NCBI RefSeq assembly: GCF_900609055.1
Contig: NZ_UXAW01000034.1
Span: 1 to 64,000, forward strand
Length of the DNA: 64,000 nt
DNA from: Pseudogemmobacter humi
GTDB taxonomy: Bacteria; Pseudomonadota; Alphaproteobacteria; Rhodobacterales; Rhodobacteraceae
Reading direction: 5' to 3'
Both the position numbers and the translations under genes were made by a program. The number at the start of each line of letters is the position of its first letter. Within the stretch, counting starts at the first letter, position 1. Positions 53,813 to 63,062 of the stretch are shown piece by piece. The notes beneath the pieces are model-generated. The model was given only the letters and a program-made list of their open reading frames with translations. It had not been told where the DNA came from and made no database searches.

Positions 53813-53973
53813 GGGCCGACCCCGCGGGAAAGAAGAAGGGGGCCCTGCCCCCGTCGCGTTCCGCGACTCCCCCGGGGTATTTGGGTCAGGATGAAAACCA
53901 TGGCAGCAAAACTGCGCCGCGCCTCGGGCCGCTTACGCGGGGGAGACGCGGCGCTTTCACTCTGGGCGGTCAT
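53809..53973 (-). CDS. Small ORF coupled to cobQ, partly made of repeat sequence
   Basis: This 54-residue open frame has a strong GGGAGG seven bases before its ATG and a stop that overlaps the cobQ GTG start (GTGA). Those two signs suggest real translation, perhaps only to couple cobQ expression. The first ~24 residues are basic and Ser/Ala-rich. The rest (FILTQIPRG onward) is encoded by the palindromic repeat at 53,838-53,897 and need not be functional protein. No family is recognised. Confidence 0.4.
53838..53897 (+). repeat. Modular palindromic repeat, copy A
   Basis: Layout: GGGGGCCCTGCCCCC stem, variable hairpin GTCGCG-TTC-CGCGAC, CCCCCGGGG, then TATTTGGGTCAGGATGAAA. Its first 39 bases (53,838-53,876) are identical, inverted, to 54,053-54,091. 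It lies upstream of cobQ, inside the small ORF. Confidence 0.85.
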
Positions 53974-54032: not shown

Positions 54033-54091
54033 TTTCATTCTGGCGAAAATATCCCGGGGGAGTCGCGGAACGCGACGGGGGCAGGGCCCCC
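54033..54091 (-). repeat. Modular palindromic repeat, copy B
   Basis: This is an inverted copy of A: 39 identical core bases, then a diverged tail reading ATATTTTCGCCAGAATGAAAG on the minus strand. It lies just downstream of cobO. Together A and B bracket about 155 bases containing the start of the small ORF. Confidence 0.85.
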
Positions 54092-54737: not shown

Positions 54738-54782
54738 CCTGGCCTCGCTTGACATTGCGGCGCTGTGGTGGCTTGGCTGTCG

Positions 54783-54971
54783 CCGGTGCTGGTTCCTGCC
54801 ATACAGCAGGCCAAGAGGGAATGCGACAGGCCCGTCCGGGCCGAAGCGCAGCCGCCCCCGCGACCGTGACCGGAAAGGTCGCCCAACCGCCACTGGCCCG
54901 CAAGGGCTCGGGAAGGCAGGGCGCCCGCTGGGCCATCAGGCCCCGAATCCGCAAGCCGGGAGACCTGCCAG
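54783..54971 (+). ncRNA. Cobalamin (AdoCbl) riboswitch
   Basis: Conserved elements appear in order: GGTGCTGGTTCCTGCC, GCCAAGAGGGAAT (54,810-54,822), GCAGCCGCCCCCGCGACCGTGA (54,847-54,868), the CCGCCACTG box, CGGGAAGGCAGGG, and the closing AAGCCGGGAGACCTGCC (54,953-54,969). It precedes the DUF1636-cobW-cobN operon by about 140 bases and should repress it when cobalamin is abundant. Confidence 0.95.
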
Positions 54972-55112
54972 CGCCCGCCGCCCGCCCCTGGCGCAAGCGG
55001 CATGATCCGAAACCGGCGGCCCGGGGGGTGCCGCAGTCCGGGCATGTCGGCCGCCGCCGCCCTGCATCGAGGCTGTTCCCCTGTCGCCCGCCAAGCCGCG
55101 CCGGAGGGGCCG

Positions 55113-56476: not shown

Positions 56477-59400
56477 ATGCACGTCCTCTTCCGCGAAAGC
56501 CATGGTCTCGACGAGGCCGACATCCCGCGCGATCTGGGGCAGACGCCCGCCGATCTCGTGGTGCTGTCGTTCTCGGACAGCGACCTTGGGGCTTTCGCGG
56601 CGGGCTGGCGGCGCGGGCGCGAGACGCTGCCCGCGCTGCGGCTGGCGAACCTGTCGGCGCTGACCCATCCGCTCTCGGTCGATACCTGGATCGAGCGGAC
56701 GCTGAGGGGCGCGAAAGGCGTGCTGATCCGGCTGATCGGCGGGGTGAACTACTGGGCTTACGGGGTGGAGCAGGTCTCGCGCGTGGCCCGCGCGGAAGGA
56801 ATCGCGCTGGCGCTGTTGCCGGCGGACGGCCGCCCCGACCCGGCGCTGGATGCGGCCTCGACCCTGCCGGTCTCGACGCTCCGCCGGCTGACCGGGCTGT
56901 GTGAGGCGGGGGGCGCGGTCGCGGCCCAGGGCGCGCTGGCGCAACTGGCGCTTGCGGCGGGGCTTTACGCCGGGCCGGTCCCGGGGGCCAAGCTGCTGCC
57001 CGAATTTGGCCTCTGGCATCCCGGGCAGGGGCTGGTCCAGGCCCCGCCCGGGGGCGAGGCGCCGCTGGTCGTCATCCCGTTCTACCGCGCCTGGGTCGCG
57101 GCGGGCGATACCGGCGGCATCGAGGGGCTGATCCGGGGCTTTGAGGAGGCCGGTTTCCGAGCCGTGGGCGCCTTCGTTCCCAGCCTGAAAGACGAATCCG
57201 CCGCCGCCTGGCTGCGCGCCGCTTTGCCCGCGCTCGCCCCGGTCGCCGTGGTCAATACCACCGCTTTCTCTGCCCGCGCGGCCGAGGGCTCGCCGCTCGA
57301 CGCCGCCGGGGTGCCGGTGTTCCAGGCGATCCACGCCACCGCCCCGCGTGAGGCCTGGGCAGGGGCGGAACGCGGGTTGTCGCCCGCCGATCTCGCCATG
57401 CATGTCGCGTTGCCCGAGGTCGATGGCCGCATCCCCGCCGGGGTGATCTCGTTCAAGGAAGCGGCTCTGCGCGACCCCGATCTGCAATTCGCGCGCCAGA
57501 GCCATGCCGCCGACCCGGAACGCATCCGGGCCACCGTGGCACGGGTCGCCGCCTGGCACCGACTGGCCAGCCTGCCCGCCGCTGCGCGCCGCGTGGTGCT
57601 GGTGCTCTCCACCTATCCCGGCAAGGCGCATCGCATGGCCCATGCGGTGGGGCTGGACGCGCTCGCCTCGGCCGGGGCGATGATGGAAGATCTCACGGCG
57701 GCCGGTTTCGCCACCGCCCCCGGCGCGGCGCTGGACCAGGCGCTGCAAGAGGAAACCCTCGCCTGGCCGCTGCCCGATTACCGCCGCGCGCTGGCCCTGC
57801 TGCCCGGGCCGCTGCAAACCGCCCTGCGCGAGACCCATGGCGCGCCCGAGGACGATCCGGCGATCCGGGCGGGCACCTTCCGCTTCCGCGCCACCCGCCG
57901 CGGCAATCTGATCGTCGCGCTGCAACCCGAGCGCAGCCCCGGCCCGGACCGCGAGGGCGAATATCACGACACCAGCAGGGTGCCCTGCCACGGCTATGTC
58001 GCCTTCTACCTGTGGCTGAAACAGCAGGCCGATGCGCTGGTCCATATCGGCGCCCATGGCACGCTGGAATGGCTGCCCGGCAAGGCGGTTGCCCTTTCCG
58101 CCACCTGCTGGCCCGAGGCGCTGATCGCGCCCATCCCGGTGATCTACCCCTTCGTCGTCAACGACCCGGGCGAGGCCGCCCAGGCCCGCCGTCGCCTCGG
58201 CGCCGTCACCCTTGGCCATCTCACCCCGCCGCTTGCCGTCTCCGGGATGCCCCCCGCCCTGGCGCGGCTGGAGCGTATGCTCGACGAATACTCCACCGCC
58301 GACGGGCTCGACCCGGCGCGGCGCGACCGGCTGATTGCCACCATCCGCGATGAGGCCCAGGCCGCCGGGGTAGAGGCTGATCTCGACATCCCCCCCGACG
58401 CTTCGCCCGCCGAGGCCATCCCGAGGATCGACCGCTTCGTCTGCGACGTGAAGGAAAGCCAGTTCGGCGAGGGTCTGCATATCTGGGCGCGCGGTACTCC
58501 TGTTCACCTTGATCCAAATACCCTCGGGGGTCCGGGGGCAGACAGCCCCCGGCCGCCGATGCAGGGCGATCCCGCCTCCATCACCGCCGAGCGCGGGGCG
58601 CTCATCGCAGCCCTCTCCGGCAAGCCCGTCGCCCCCGGCCCCTCCGGCTCGCCGTTCCGCGGCCGCGCCGATGTGCTGCCGACGGGGCGCAACCTCTACG
58701 GCACCGATCCGCGCGCGGTGCCTTCGCGCGCGGCCCATGCCCAGGGGGTGAAGCTCGCCGAAGAGCTGATCCGCCGCCATCTCCAGGACCAGGGCGACTA
58801 TCCGCGCGGGCTGGTGCTGAACCTCTGGGGCTCGGCCACGATGCGCACCGCGGGCGAGGAATTCGCCATGGCGCTGCATCTCGCCGGGGTAAAGCCGGTC
58901 TGGGATGAGGGCTCGGACCGCGTCAGCGGCTATGAAATCCTGCCGCTCGCGCTTCTCGACCGGCCCCGGATCGAGGTCAGTTTGCGGGTTTCTGGCCTGT
59001 TCAGAGACGTTTTTCCCGATCTCGCCCGGCTGTTCGACGCGGCCTGCGAAAGCCTCGCCGCCCGCGACGAGGCCGCCGACATGAACCCCTACACCGCCGC
59101 CCTGCGCGGGCCGCGGGTCTTCGCCCCGGCGCCGGGCGGCTACGGTCTCGGCATTGCCGAGGGGCAGTTCGGCGAGGACGCCCGCCGCGCCGCGGGCGAG
59201 GCCTGGCTGGCGGCTTCCGACCATACCGCCGCGGGTGAGCCCGCGCGCGAGATGCTGGAGGCGCGGCTGAGGGCCTCGGACGCTTTCGTCCATGCCCAGG
59301 ACATGCCCGAGACCGATCTCTTGCTCGCCATGGATTACGCCGCGCATGAGGGCGGTTTCGCCGCCGCGATGGAGCGGATCGGCGCTTTGAGGCCCGCGCT

Positions 59401-59773
59401 CTACCATCTCGACGCCACCCGCCCCGACCAGCCGCGTGCCCGGACCCTGGGCGAGGAAATCGCCCGCGTCACCCGCGCCCGCGCTGCCAATCCGGTCTGG
59501 TTGCGGTCGATGACCCGCCACGGCTTTCGCGGCGCGGCCGAGATCGCGGCGACGCTCGACCATCTGGCGGCTTTCGCCCATCTCGCCCGGGTGGTGCCCT
59601 CGCATCTGTTCGACCTCTATCATGAGGCGACTTTGGGTGATCCGGCGATCCGCGACTTCATGGCGGCGGCAAATCCCGGCGCGCTGGCCGCGATGGAGGA
59701 TTGCTTCCACGCGCTGGAAGGCGCAGGTCTGTGGTCAAGCCGGTCCAACTCCCGCGCGGCAGGTGTGCGATGA
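56477..59773 (+). CDS. cobN: Cobaltochelatase large subunit CobN
   Basis: This 1,098-residue subunit of the aerobic cobaltochelatase CobNST binds hydrogenobyrinic acid a,c-diamide. Conserved stretches include FYLWLKQQADALVHIGAHGTLEWLPGK (shown here only as family marks), VLPTGRNLYGTDPRAVPSRAA, VLNLWGSATMRTAGEEFA and LLAMDYAAHEGGF. Residues ~676-692 are encoded by a copy of the palindromic repeat (58,501-58,550), which keeps the frame open; related proteins have a short loop there. The gene starts one base after the cobW stop and overlaps cobG (ATGA). Confidence 0.94.
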   Translation: MHVLFRESHGLDEADIPRDLGQTPADLVVLSFSDSDLGAFAAGWRRGRETLPALRLANLSALTHPLSVDTWIERTLRGAKGVLIRLIGGVNYWAYGVEQVSRVARAEGIALALLPADGRPDPALDAASTLPVSTLRRLTGLCEAGGAVAAQGALAQLALAAGLYAGPVPGAKLLPEFGLWHPGQGLVQAPPGGEAPLVVIPFYRAWVAAGDTGGIEGLIRGFEEAGFRAVGAFVPSLKDESAAAWLRAALPALAPVAVVNTTAFSARAAEGSPLDAAGVPVFQAIHATAPREAWAGAERGLSPADLAMHVALPEVDGRIPAGVISFKEAALRDPDLQFARQSHAADPERIRATVARVAAWHRLASLPAAARRVVLVLSTYPGKAHRMAHAVGLDALASAGAMMEDLTAAGFATAPGAALDQALQEETLAWPLPDYRRALALLPGPLQTALRETHGAPEDDPAIRAGTFRFRATRRGNLIVALQPERSPGPDREGEYHDTSRVPCHGYVAFYLWLKQQADALVHIGAHGTLEWLPGKAVALSATCWPEALIAPIPVIYPFVVNDPGEAAQARRRLGAVTLGHLTPPLAVSGMPPALARLERMLDEYSTADGLDPARRDRLIATIRDEAQAAGVEADLDIPPDASPAEAIPRIDRFVCDVKESQFGEGLHIWARGTPVHLDPNTLGGPGADSPRPPMQGDPASITAERGALIAALSGKPVAPGPSGSPFRGRADVLPTGRNLYGTDPRAVPSRAAHAQGVKLAEELIRRHLQDQGDYPRGLVLNLWGSATMRTAGEEFAMALHLAGVKPVWDEGSDRVSGYEILPLALLDRPRIEVSLRVSGLFRDVFPDLARLFDAACESLAARDEAADMNPYTAALRGPRVFAPAPGGYGLGIAEGQFGEDARRAAGEAWLAASDHTAAGEPAREMLEARLRASDAFVHAQDMPETDLLLAMDYAAHEGGFAAAMERIGALRPALYHLDATRPDQPRARTLGEEIARVTRARAANPVWLRSMTRHGFRGAAEIAATLDHLAAFAHLARVVPSHLFDLYHEATLGDPAIRDFMAAANPGALAAMEDCFHALEGAGLWSSRSNSRAAGVR
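58501..58550 (-). repeat. Modular palindromic repeat, copy C, in frame inside cobN
   Basis: On the minus strand it has the same layout as copy A: a GGGGGCTGTCTGCCCCC stem, a short spacer, CCCCCGAGGG, then TATTTGGATCAAGGTGAAC. On the coding strand it is translated as VHLDPNTLGGPGADSPR. The variable central hairpin is missing, leaving a total length that preserves the cobN frame. Confidence 0.75.
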
Positions 59774-61513: not shown

Positions 61514-62232
61514 GCGTGACGGGTAAGGTGATCTGCATCGGCCTCGGCCCCGGCGACCCCGAGCTGATGAGCCTGCGCGCGCACCGGCTGCTGACCTCGG
61601 CCCGGGTGGTGGCCTATTTCCGCAAGGCGGGCAAGACCGGCCAGGCCCGGCGCATGGTCGAGGGGCTGATCCCCGGGGACGCCGAGGAATGGCCGATGGA
61701 ATATCCGGTCACGACCGAGATCCCCTTCCAGGACCCGGCCTATAACGCCGCGCTCGCGCCGTTCTACGAGGAATGGGCGGCGCGGCTGGCGGCGGCCACG
61801 GCGGGCGGCAATGTCGTGGTGCTGTGCGAGGGGGACCCCTTCCTCTACGGCTCGTTCATGCACCTGCACTCGCGCCTGCCCGAGGGAATGGCCGAGGTGG
61901 TGCCGGGCATCCCCGGTATGGTCGGCTGCTGGAACGCGACCGGCCGGCCGATCACCTGGGGCGACGATGTGCTGACCGTGCTGCCCGCGACCCTGCCCGA
62001 GGCGGAACTGTTCCGCCGGGTGGCCGATACCGATGCGCTGGTGGTGATGAAGATCGGCCGCAACCTCGACCGGCTGCGGCGTGCGCTGGCGGCGGCGGGG
62101 CGGCTGGAGGACGCCTGGCTGGTGGAACATGGCACCATGCCTGCGGAAAAGGTGCGCCGGCTGGGCGATGTGGAGGGCGAGGCACCCTATTTCTCAATCG
62201 TCATCATCCATGGCCGGGGGCGTCGGCCATGA
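61510..62232 (+). CDS. cobI: Precorrin-2 C20-methyltransferase
   Basis: This 240-residue SAM-dependent methyltransferase of the tetrapyrrole family has ICIGLGPGDPELMSLRA at the N-terminus, VVVLCEGDPFLYGSFMHL in the middle and VPGIPGMVGCWNATG. ATG overlaps the cobH stop as ATGA. Its own stop overlaps a possible upstream start of cobJ. Confidence 0.93.
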   Translation: MSVTGKVICIGLGPGDPELMSLRAHRLLTSARVVAYFRKAGKTGQARRMVEGLIPGDAEEWPMEYPVTTEIPFQDPAYNAALAPFYEEWAARLAAATAGGNVVVLCEGDPFLYGSFMHLHSRLPEGMAEVVPGIPGMVGCWNATGRPITWGDDVLTVLPATLPEAELFRRVADTDALVVMKIGRNLDRLRRALAAAGRLEDAWLVEHGTMPAEKVRRLGDVEGEAPYFSIVIIHGRGRRP

Positions 62233-62248
62233 CTGCGGACGAAGAGGC

Positions 62249-62333
62249 GGGGGCCCTGCCCCCCAGTCCATCGGTTCTTGAACCGATGGCGAACACGATG
62301 GACTACCCCCGGGGTATTTCGGTCAGGATGAAA
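62249..62333 (+). repeat. Modular palindromic repeat, copy D, at the cobI-cobJ junction
   Basis: It has a GGGGGCCCTGCCCCC stem, then a longer variable centre (62,265-62,304), CCCCCGGGGTATTTCGGTCAGG and ATGAAA. In the centre two mutually exclusive stems are possible: CCATCGGTTC with GAACCGATGG (10 bp), or AGTCCATCG with CGATGGACT (9 bp). The final ATG of the element is the likely start codon of cobJ. Confidence 0.8.
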
Positions 62334-63062
62334 GGCTGGATCGTCGTCGCCGGGCTGGGGCCGGGCGCGGAGGCGCTGGTGACGCCGGAGGTGTCTGCGA
62401 TTCTGGCCGCGGCGACCGATGTGATCGGCTATATCCCTTACGTCGCGCGGGTGCCGGACCGGGAGGGGCTGGTGAAGCATGCCAGCGACAACCGGGTGGA
62501 ACTGGACCGCGCCCGCCACGCGCTGGAACTGGCGGCCTCGGGGCGGCGGGTGGTGGTGGTGTCTTCGGGCGATCCGGGGGTGTTCGCCATGGCCTCGGCG
62601 GTGTTCGAGGCGATGGAGGCGGGGCCTGCGGACTGGCGCGAGCTGGATCTGCGGGTGCTGCCGGGGATCACCGCGATGCTGGCGGCGGCGGCGGCGGTCG
62701 GTGCGCCTCTGGGGCATGATTTCTGCGCGATCAATCTGTCTGACAATCTCAAGCCTCTGGATCTGGTGCTGAAGCGTTTGCGGCTGGCAATTGAGGGTGA
62801 TTTCGCGATGGGGTTCTACAATCCGCGCTCGCGTTCGCGCCCCGGGCAGTTCGACCGGGTGCTGGAGGTCCTGCGCGAGGGCTGCGAGCCGGAGCGGCTG
62901 GTGGTGCTGGCGCGGGCGGTGTCTACCCCGGAGCAGAGCGTGACCGTGTTGCCGCTGGCCGATCTGCGGGCAGAGATGGTGGATATGCGGACCATGGTGA
63001 TCCTGGGCTCGTCGCTGACGCGGCGGGTCGGGCGCTTCGTCTACACCCCGAGGTCGGCATGA
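62328..63062 (+). CDS. cobJ: Precorrin-3B C17-methyltransferase
   Basis: This enzyme of about 244 residues contracts the ring and methylates C-17. WIVVAGLGPGAEALVTPEV is the family N-terminus, VVVSSGDPGVFAMASAVFE and VLPGITAMLAAAAAVGAPL the core, and FAMGFYNPRSRSRPGQF a strong signature. The ATG at 62,328 is supplied by repeat copy D. An alternative ATG at 62,229 overlaps the cobI stop and would add 33 residues encoded mostly by the repeat. Neither has a good ribosome site. The 3' end overlaps cobK on the other strand by 22 bases. Confidence 0.9.
   Translation: MKGWIVVAGLGPGAEALVTPEVSAILAAATDVIGYIPYVARVPDREGLVKHASDNRVELDRARHALELAASGRRVVVVSSGDPGVFAMASAVFEAMEAGPADWRELDLRVLPGITAMLAAAAAVGAPLGHDFCAINLSDNLKPLDLVLKRLRLAIEGDFAMGFYNPRSRSRPGQFDRVLEVLREGCEPERLVVLARAVSTPEQSVTVLPLADLRAEMVDMRTMVILGSSLTRRVGRFVYTPRSA

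Follow-up and report, generated by a model that had tools for sequence, protein, structure and literature searches.

Repeat-like DNA lies in frame, at one and the same site, in the cobN gene of seven out of 13 genomes of the genus, and we consider it likely that this state goes back to one in-frame insertion into the CobN linker, that the inserted residues have since drifted loosely, and that the copy in the genome analysed here still belongs to a live repeat family. The window is a stretch of 64,000 nt (C81:1-64000) from the genome designated G000, which comprises 4.47 Mb in 143 contigs. The features discussed are collected in Table 1. With a 163-aa query around the loop, cobN was the single match in G000 (E ≤ 0.001). 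The original prediction called the chelatase subunit essential; cobaltochelatase is required for cobalamin synthesis, while growth is not known to depend on it.

Table 1. Coordinates of the features discussed. Positions refer to the window unless a contig is specified.
Feature	Position	Strand	Basis or remark
cobN (short, 1098-aa form), aerobic cobaltochelatase large subunit	56477..59773	+	ORF, translation, PDB relatives 9uk9 and 7c6o
Insert between RGTP and GDPAS, VHLDPNTLGGPGADSPRPPMQ	58502..58564	+	21 codons, residues 676-696; congener and uninserted alignments
Left module, class alpha, GTTCACCTTGATCCAAATACCC	58502..58523	+	Genome pattern search, position weight matrices
Terminal hairpin, CCGGGGGCAGACAGCCCCCGG	58532..58552	+	Fold
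Full-length copy with central arm	53838..53896	-	Taken as intergenic; codon scan did not call coding
Full-length copy with central arm	54033..54091	+	Taken as intergenic
cobJ	62229..63062	+	Read from an ATG overlapping the upstream stop (ATGA); predicted start
Repeat copy before the conserved part of cobJ	62249..62333	-	In frame with cobJ
In-frame copy in nnr	G000:C98:56872-56899 (L046, L246)	reverse	

The original prediction had placed a repeat copy in the coding strand of cobN, at residues 676-692, and we could confirm it. The copy occupies 58502-58552, beginning at codon 676, and its first 28 nt show two mismatches to the family pattern, TTTCATNNTGNNNNAAATAYCCYSGGGG, which (with up to three mismatches allowed) is matched 189 times across the 4.47 Mb of G000, while the reversed pattern, serving as a control, is not matched once. 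The open frame suggests that the insert is translated as part of CobN. Since proline and glycine abound in the loop and the genome is GC-rich, a low-complexity loop might be thought to resemble the repeat by chance; yet, the module is specific and AT-containing, the control is empty over the whole genome, and the congeners carry the repeat at the same cobN site. These congeneric copies refute a chance likeness, the probability of which we consider next to nil.

The terminal hairpin of the cobN copy has a predicted folding energy of -31.6 kcal/mol (z -2.8), with none of 200 shuffled sequences folding as well; for two full-length copies folded alongside, z was -1.8 and -0.1. It had also been predicted that loss of the central hairpin leaves the frame open. 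The frame is open, but the terminal hairpin is intact, and the open frame cannot be put down to a missing central arm, since G005 and G012 have cobN copies with longer centres that are open all the same. Copies without a central hairpin are found outside genes too, and a short centre occurs without a coding call in copies L031, L043, L044, L051 and L059.

Two types of copies can be told apart. Type A consists of CCCGGGGG or a similar sequence, a variable centre and a hairpin of a G-run and a C-run; type B shares the left module and continues with CCGCCGGAGGC. Type A accounts for 78 of the 115 flanked copies in G000, and its centre could be parsed in 63 of them (15 unparsed). In this set, to which the cobN copy belongs, the centre measures 3 nt in eight of the 63, and the hairpin loop CAGACAG, likewise found in eight of the 63, is a minority loop in G000. 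In the window, the length of the repeat ranges from 51 to 85 nt. The full-length copy at 54033 aligns with a copy in G002, a pairing made by one flank only. Head-to-head pairing was flagged for 45 of the 115 copies; the paired modules lie a few bases apart, one arm being of type A and the other of type B (e.g., L039, L047 and L054). By crude codon scoring, coding sequence reads towards the hairpin side in 45 of the 78 type-A copies of G000 and away from it in 22 (11 uncalled); reading towards the hairpin would fit an element that might be terminator-like.

A search of Rfam with 10 loci left the repeat unmatched, the sole match being a cobalamin riboswitch (RF00174, 76.4 bits) at 54773-54986 of the window (L041:2241-2454), in the cob region. 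A generic repeat search of the window yielded mostly low-identity families that we read as codon-periodic noise, with the exception of one inverted pair, I1. None of the open-licence papers listed in literature searches describes the repeat; among the matches listed in a text search of that literature for the words of the repeat, only its 9-letter word was found, so that the absence of a description is weakly supported.

The left module, 22 nt in length, is mainly spelled in two ways, alpha (YTTCMYCYTGRNNNAAATACYC) and beta (TTTCATCTGTCNNNAAATATCC), between which five to six out of 19 positions differ together. The numbers of beta and alpha modules in whole genomes (at most one mismatch; controls all 0) were 0/195 in G000, 47/42 in G011, 125/119 in G004, 79/0 in G008, 65/0 in G005, 7/86 in G006, 34/0 in G009, 38/60 in G002, 3/63 in G010, 5/132 in G001, 40/28 in G003, 98/39 in G012 and 122/20 in G007. 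The cobN copy is of class alpha in G000 and of class beta in G012, G004 and—with two mismatches—G005, while it is mixed (a minor class) in G002; the copies of G001 and G007 are decayed and come closest to beta. In G000, the cobN copy best fits the alpha matrix of its own genome (27.0 bits), other alpha matrices giving 21.0 and 20.8 bits and beta matrices at most 8.3. A minor third spelling, TTTCATCTTGCCNNAAATATCC, intermediate between alpha and beta, occurs at G000:C75:84597, at G002:C33:94755 and in the cobN copy of G002. Over 120 genera of Rhodobacteraceae, each represented by one genome (G000 included), alpha was found in 47 and beta in 10, the control giving one match, in G095. Among the places listed, copies of one genome tend to share one spelling, and spellings differ between genera; this agreement within genomes may be a sign of concerted evolution.

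Measured from RGTP to GDxxS, the insert in cobN is 21 residues long in G000 and G002, 24 in G004, 25 in G007, 26 in G012 and G001, and 30 in G005. It is absent from the congeners G008, where the loop reads RGWP-DESGTLR-GD, and G011, which has a different, shorter loop at the site. Uninserted loops are also found in three Haematobacter genomes (RGTP-QAGGGLA-GD) and in Paracoccus onubensis (RGTP-GTGGLT-GE); like the loop of G008, these belong to a class of six to seven residues. The cobN search left G006 and G010 unmatched and gave no more than a weak match in G003. In G009, the gene is split at contig ends (the end of C28, and C108) near the loop, which cannot be read for that reason, and the repeat might have caused the break in the assembly. 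Amongst named genomes, from which the best 80 loci were taken, the motif was present in 62, and only one of these carries the insert: Rhodobacter sp. SGA-6-6, which we take to be the same genome as G002. Its motif segment is 87 residues long as compared to 58-73 in the other 61 loci; given the uninserted form beside RGTP in Haematobacter and P. onubensis, cobN of the window is thus about 14 residues longer there (87 versus 73 in Haematobacter). Relatives lacking the repeat do not share the inserted residues but have the loop of six to seven, and the original prediction that an intergenic-type repeat became part of CobN is supported by the seven genomes of the genus, in which repeat-like DNA, decayed in two, specifies 21-30 residues.

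On the left side, the borders of the insert are unlike, with extra codons preceding TTTCAT in G002, G004 and G005, while on the right side, five of the seven inserted genomes have the flank CCACAGGCGA in common. The copies of G000 and G012 both have CTCGGGGG and the CAGACAG loop, which would be a sign of common descent; the loop is also found in the cobN copy of G005. By eye, a possible short duplication (GGAACGCCC/GGAACCCCG) is seen beside the copy in G004. In a CobN tree from which the loop was left out (19 of 20 rows used; P. onubensis is absent, as its start motif was unmatched), G000 is the sister of G005, G004, G012, G001 and G007 with a support of 100/100. For G002, the support (62/44) does not decide between a place with the other inserted genomes and one with Haematobacter. 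The rpoB tree, in which G003 and G010 had no match, again unites the five genomes with beta or beta-like cobN copies (100/100) but places G000 weakly with G011, G009 and G002 (46/97). This conflict over the position of G000 speaks against the single insertion as we propose it; the histories of rpoB and of the cob cluster may differ, or else rpoB may simply lack resolution.

Reciprocal pairing of copies by both flanks yielded 75 pairs from 287 copies. Between G000 and G012, 15 copies were paired, 14 of them alpha in G000 and beta in G012, at 10 out of 11 places, cobN included, some places holding two arms. Because the sampled copies of G012 comprised 50 beta and three alpha (the genome has 98 and 39, and the patterns of listed hits under-sample its alpha copies) and G000 has no beta, the proportion of 14 in 15 is largely fixed by sampling, and the result is that such places exist. 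The pairs of G000 and G007 include four alpha/beta and four alpha/alpha; all six pairs of G000 and G001 are alpha/alpha, with three to four differences in 19 positions, and the nine paired copies of G007 and G012, at six places, are all of the same class, without any difference outside three free positions. For 12 of the 14 alpha/beta pairs of G000 and G012, the modules were found to agree at 13-14 of 19 positions (0.71), and the right-hand parts have a mean identity of 0.66 (range 0.45-0.86), no higher than that of the modules; change has thus not spared the right-hand parts. Only individual pairs, L154/L310 (0.86) among them, clearly show a switch limited to the module.

The cobN linker could instead be a hot spot that members of the family entered independently in each lineage, the classes then reflecting separate insertions. 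The occurrence of alpha, beta and mixed copies at one cobN site in different species agrees with this, as do the unlike left borders, the strong divergence of paired copies in their right-hand parts, and the insert-free Haematobacter, which do not clearly fall outside the inserted group. However, an independent insertion would also be needed at each of the nine other places where G000 and G012 differ as alpha and beta, and the minority loop common to the cobN copies of G000, G012 and G005 as well as the right flank shared by five genomes argue for descent from one copy. We regard recurrent insertion as unlikely.

A respelling of the copies could, on the other hand, be brought about by selection on DNA: if the module were a binding site, a change in the specificity of its DNA-binding factor could have respelled the copies, that in cobN included. 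In many genera, one spelling per genome tends to hold (among the copies listed), the head-to-head pairs resemble dimer sites, and the positions distinguishing alpha from beta change jointly. G001 and G007 nevertheless retain decayed modules in their cobN copies, and both classes are numerous in several genomes, almost equally so in G004. We regard such selection as rather unlikely; it is also one of the two mechanisms within the explanation that we prefer.

At the protein level, the insert appears to be under loose constraint in the closest species. In the closest pair, G012 and G001, the insert has a pS of 0.187 and a pN of 0.229 (pN/pS 1.2) as compared to 0.195 and 0.015 (pN/pS 0.08) in the flanks (771 codons); synonymous and non-synonymous differences number four and 13 in the insert and 118 and 26 in the flanks (Fisher p = 2e-6). 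Values of pN also exceed pS in the pairs G012-G007 (0.482/0.375) and G001-G007 (0.454/0.303) but fall below it in G012-G004 (0.257/0.489), G004-G005 (0.126/0.545), G000-G012 (0.341/0.374) and G000-G002 (0.382/0.515). The three closest pairs thus give ratios of about 1.2-1.5 and the remaining ones of 0.2-0.9, noisy values, as each pair offers 19-26 codons. In an AlphaFold model of a 707-residue fragment, mediocre overall (mean pLDDT 69.5), fragment residues 365-383, corresponding to CobN 676-694, make up one of the 15 segments in which pLDDT falls below 50. The distance between aligned blocks is 122 residues in 9uk9 and 100 in 7c6o, versus 27 and 32 in CobN of the window, which means that the site varies in length within the CobN family.

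One could suppose that the peptide was recruited for a selected function in CobN, for the insert has been kept in seven species and pN lies below pS in more distant pairs, for instance in G004-G005, a pair that likewise speaks against drift. Against recruitment stand the ratios above one in the three closest pairs, the variable length of 21-30 residues and the decayed sequence in two species. We consider such a function very unlikely; the inserted peptide most likely has none of its own.

CobN is not the sole host of in-frame copies. In nnr, which we take to be the gene for NAD(P)HX epimerase/dehydratase, a reverse-oriented copy lies in frame at one site in three genomes: G000 and G002, where it is of class alpha, and G009, where it is of class beta. 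The site has a plain loop in G003, G007, G001, G010 and G011, another loop in G005, a short one in G004, and two halves in separate frames in G012; nnr was unmatched in G006 and G008. The nnr tree does not separate G000, G002 and G009 from the insert-free G010 and G011.

At the start of the gene that we presume to be cobJ, a reverse copy probably forms an N-terminal extension in five genomes; it follows a start codon that shares bases with the stop of the preceding gene (ATGA or GTGA) and precedes the conserved GWxVVAGLGPG. The module was recognised at this place in G000, G004, G007 (three mismatches), G001 and G002, with an open frame in each of them; the extension in G012 is about as long but its module is unrecognisable, and the motif search was without a match in G005. 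In P. onubensis, Defluviimonas and others, cobJ begins directly at MSGW. The stretch from the hairpin to the conserved part lacks an in-frame ATG, GTG or TTG in G001, G004, G007 and G012 but contains an ATG in G000 and G002, so that translation of the extension is a prediction. In the window (62229-62333), the reverse strand of the copy ends in AGGATGAAA, which could double as an internal start, a similar ATG being present in G002. All five copies at this place are alpha, and the own-genome matrix fits best in G000, G001 and G002; for G004 and G007, the G002 matrix was the best of six, in a set without alpha matrices of G004 and G007.

Copies inside genes are rare by codon scans, which are imperfect. 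In G000, the scan called two out of 116 copies (cobN and nnr). A second scan with other thresholds, including the loci fetched for cobN and nnr, called two of 44 in G002 and one of 54 in G012, with known misses such as the nnr copy of G000; cobJ was flagged by neither. A scan of 63 congeneric copies flagged only cobN of G002 and missed that of G012. A match of the second scan in G007 (L243), in what is presumably accD, was taken as chance, and a long antisense frame over copy L051 was rejected as spurious.

Our preferred course of events would, then, begin with the repeat entering the cobN linker in frame in a lineage from which at least seven of the species in the genus descend; the insert is found at the same site and is absent from the outgroups, which suggests one single event. 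As the linker tolerates changes in length, the frame would have been kept while the residues drifted, as seen in the closest species. In the lineage of G000, the cobN copy would have stayed in the live family, its module being alpha as in every counted copy of that genome, while the sister clade in the CobN tree carries beta or relics of beta. The likeliest cause would be short-tract gene conversion among copies or else selection on the DNA module by a putative co-evolving binding factor: the class of the module equals that of the genome for cobN and nnr in G000 and for nnr in G009, and species differ at shared intergenic places, which points to homogenisation or to selection on DNA. The tracking of the genome class by the cobN copy is not universal, since the copies of G001 and G007 are decayed and that of G001 is a relic of beta in a mostly alpha genome.

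We tentatively propose, rating it slightly less probable than its opposite, that concerted evolution of the repeat reaches into coding sequence, such that residues of the CobN loop (HLSEN in G012, HLDPN in G000) would be dictated by the state of the repeat across the genome and not by selection on the enzyme. As far as we have found, this reach of module switching into a protein is the novel element. The congeneric series of empty, alpha, beta, mixed and decayed sites lets one ask how dispersed repeats homogenise within a genome and whether a process at the DNA level can rewrite the residues of a protein.

Several known elements invite comparison. Like REP elements, the repeat is short, high-copy, hairpin-bearing and often paired; according to PMC3733652, REP elements with a RAYT transposase are palindromes tagged with GTAG or CGTC, motifs that, on inspection, the module consensus does not have. 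The RAYT-type domain PF01797 (Y1_Tnp) was found in none of the 13 genomes of the genus, while the control search gave matches in five out of 14. MITEs fused in frame to genes are described in PMC10969869; like them, the repeat is a small element that adds residues to a host protein. By eye only, and unlike what a MITE would show, terminal inverted repeats were not seen in the whole element; the possible short duplication beside the copy in G004 might be a target duplication.

The closest precedent would appear to be the Rickettsia palindromic elements (RPE), a likeness already drawn in the original prediction and one that holds for behaviour: in-frame insertion, a common site in orthologs and a tolerated loop. 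According to PMC3767692, RPE and the palindromic elements of Wolbachia are dispersed, lie in frame in protein genes and form same-site inserts in orthologs; orthologs may also carry elements of different type (RPE-4, RPE-6 and RPE-7) in the same or a nearby position, and solvent-exposed positions are reported. The present repeat likewise inserts in frame (in cobN in seven genomes, in nnr in three and, as it would seem, in cobJ in five) and occupies the same site in orthologs of all three genes. It does not keep to a single conserved peptide frame, being read forward in cobN and in reverse, in two frames, in nnr and cobJ, and it differs from the elements of Rickettsia and Wolbachia (100-150 bp) in being GC-rich, shorter and located in Rhodobacteraceae. 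In-frame repeats at shared protein sites are best described for Rickettsia and Wolbachia (PMC3767692, PMC10969869); here, they occur at common sites in a non-rickettsial genus, in genomes of 3.6-5.6 Mb and in an enzyme with solved relatives.
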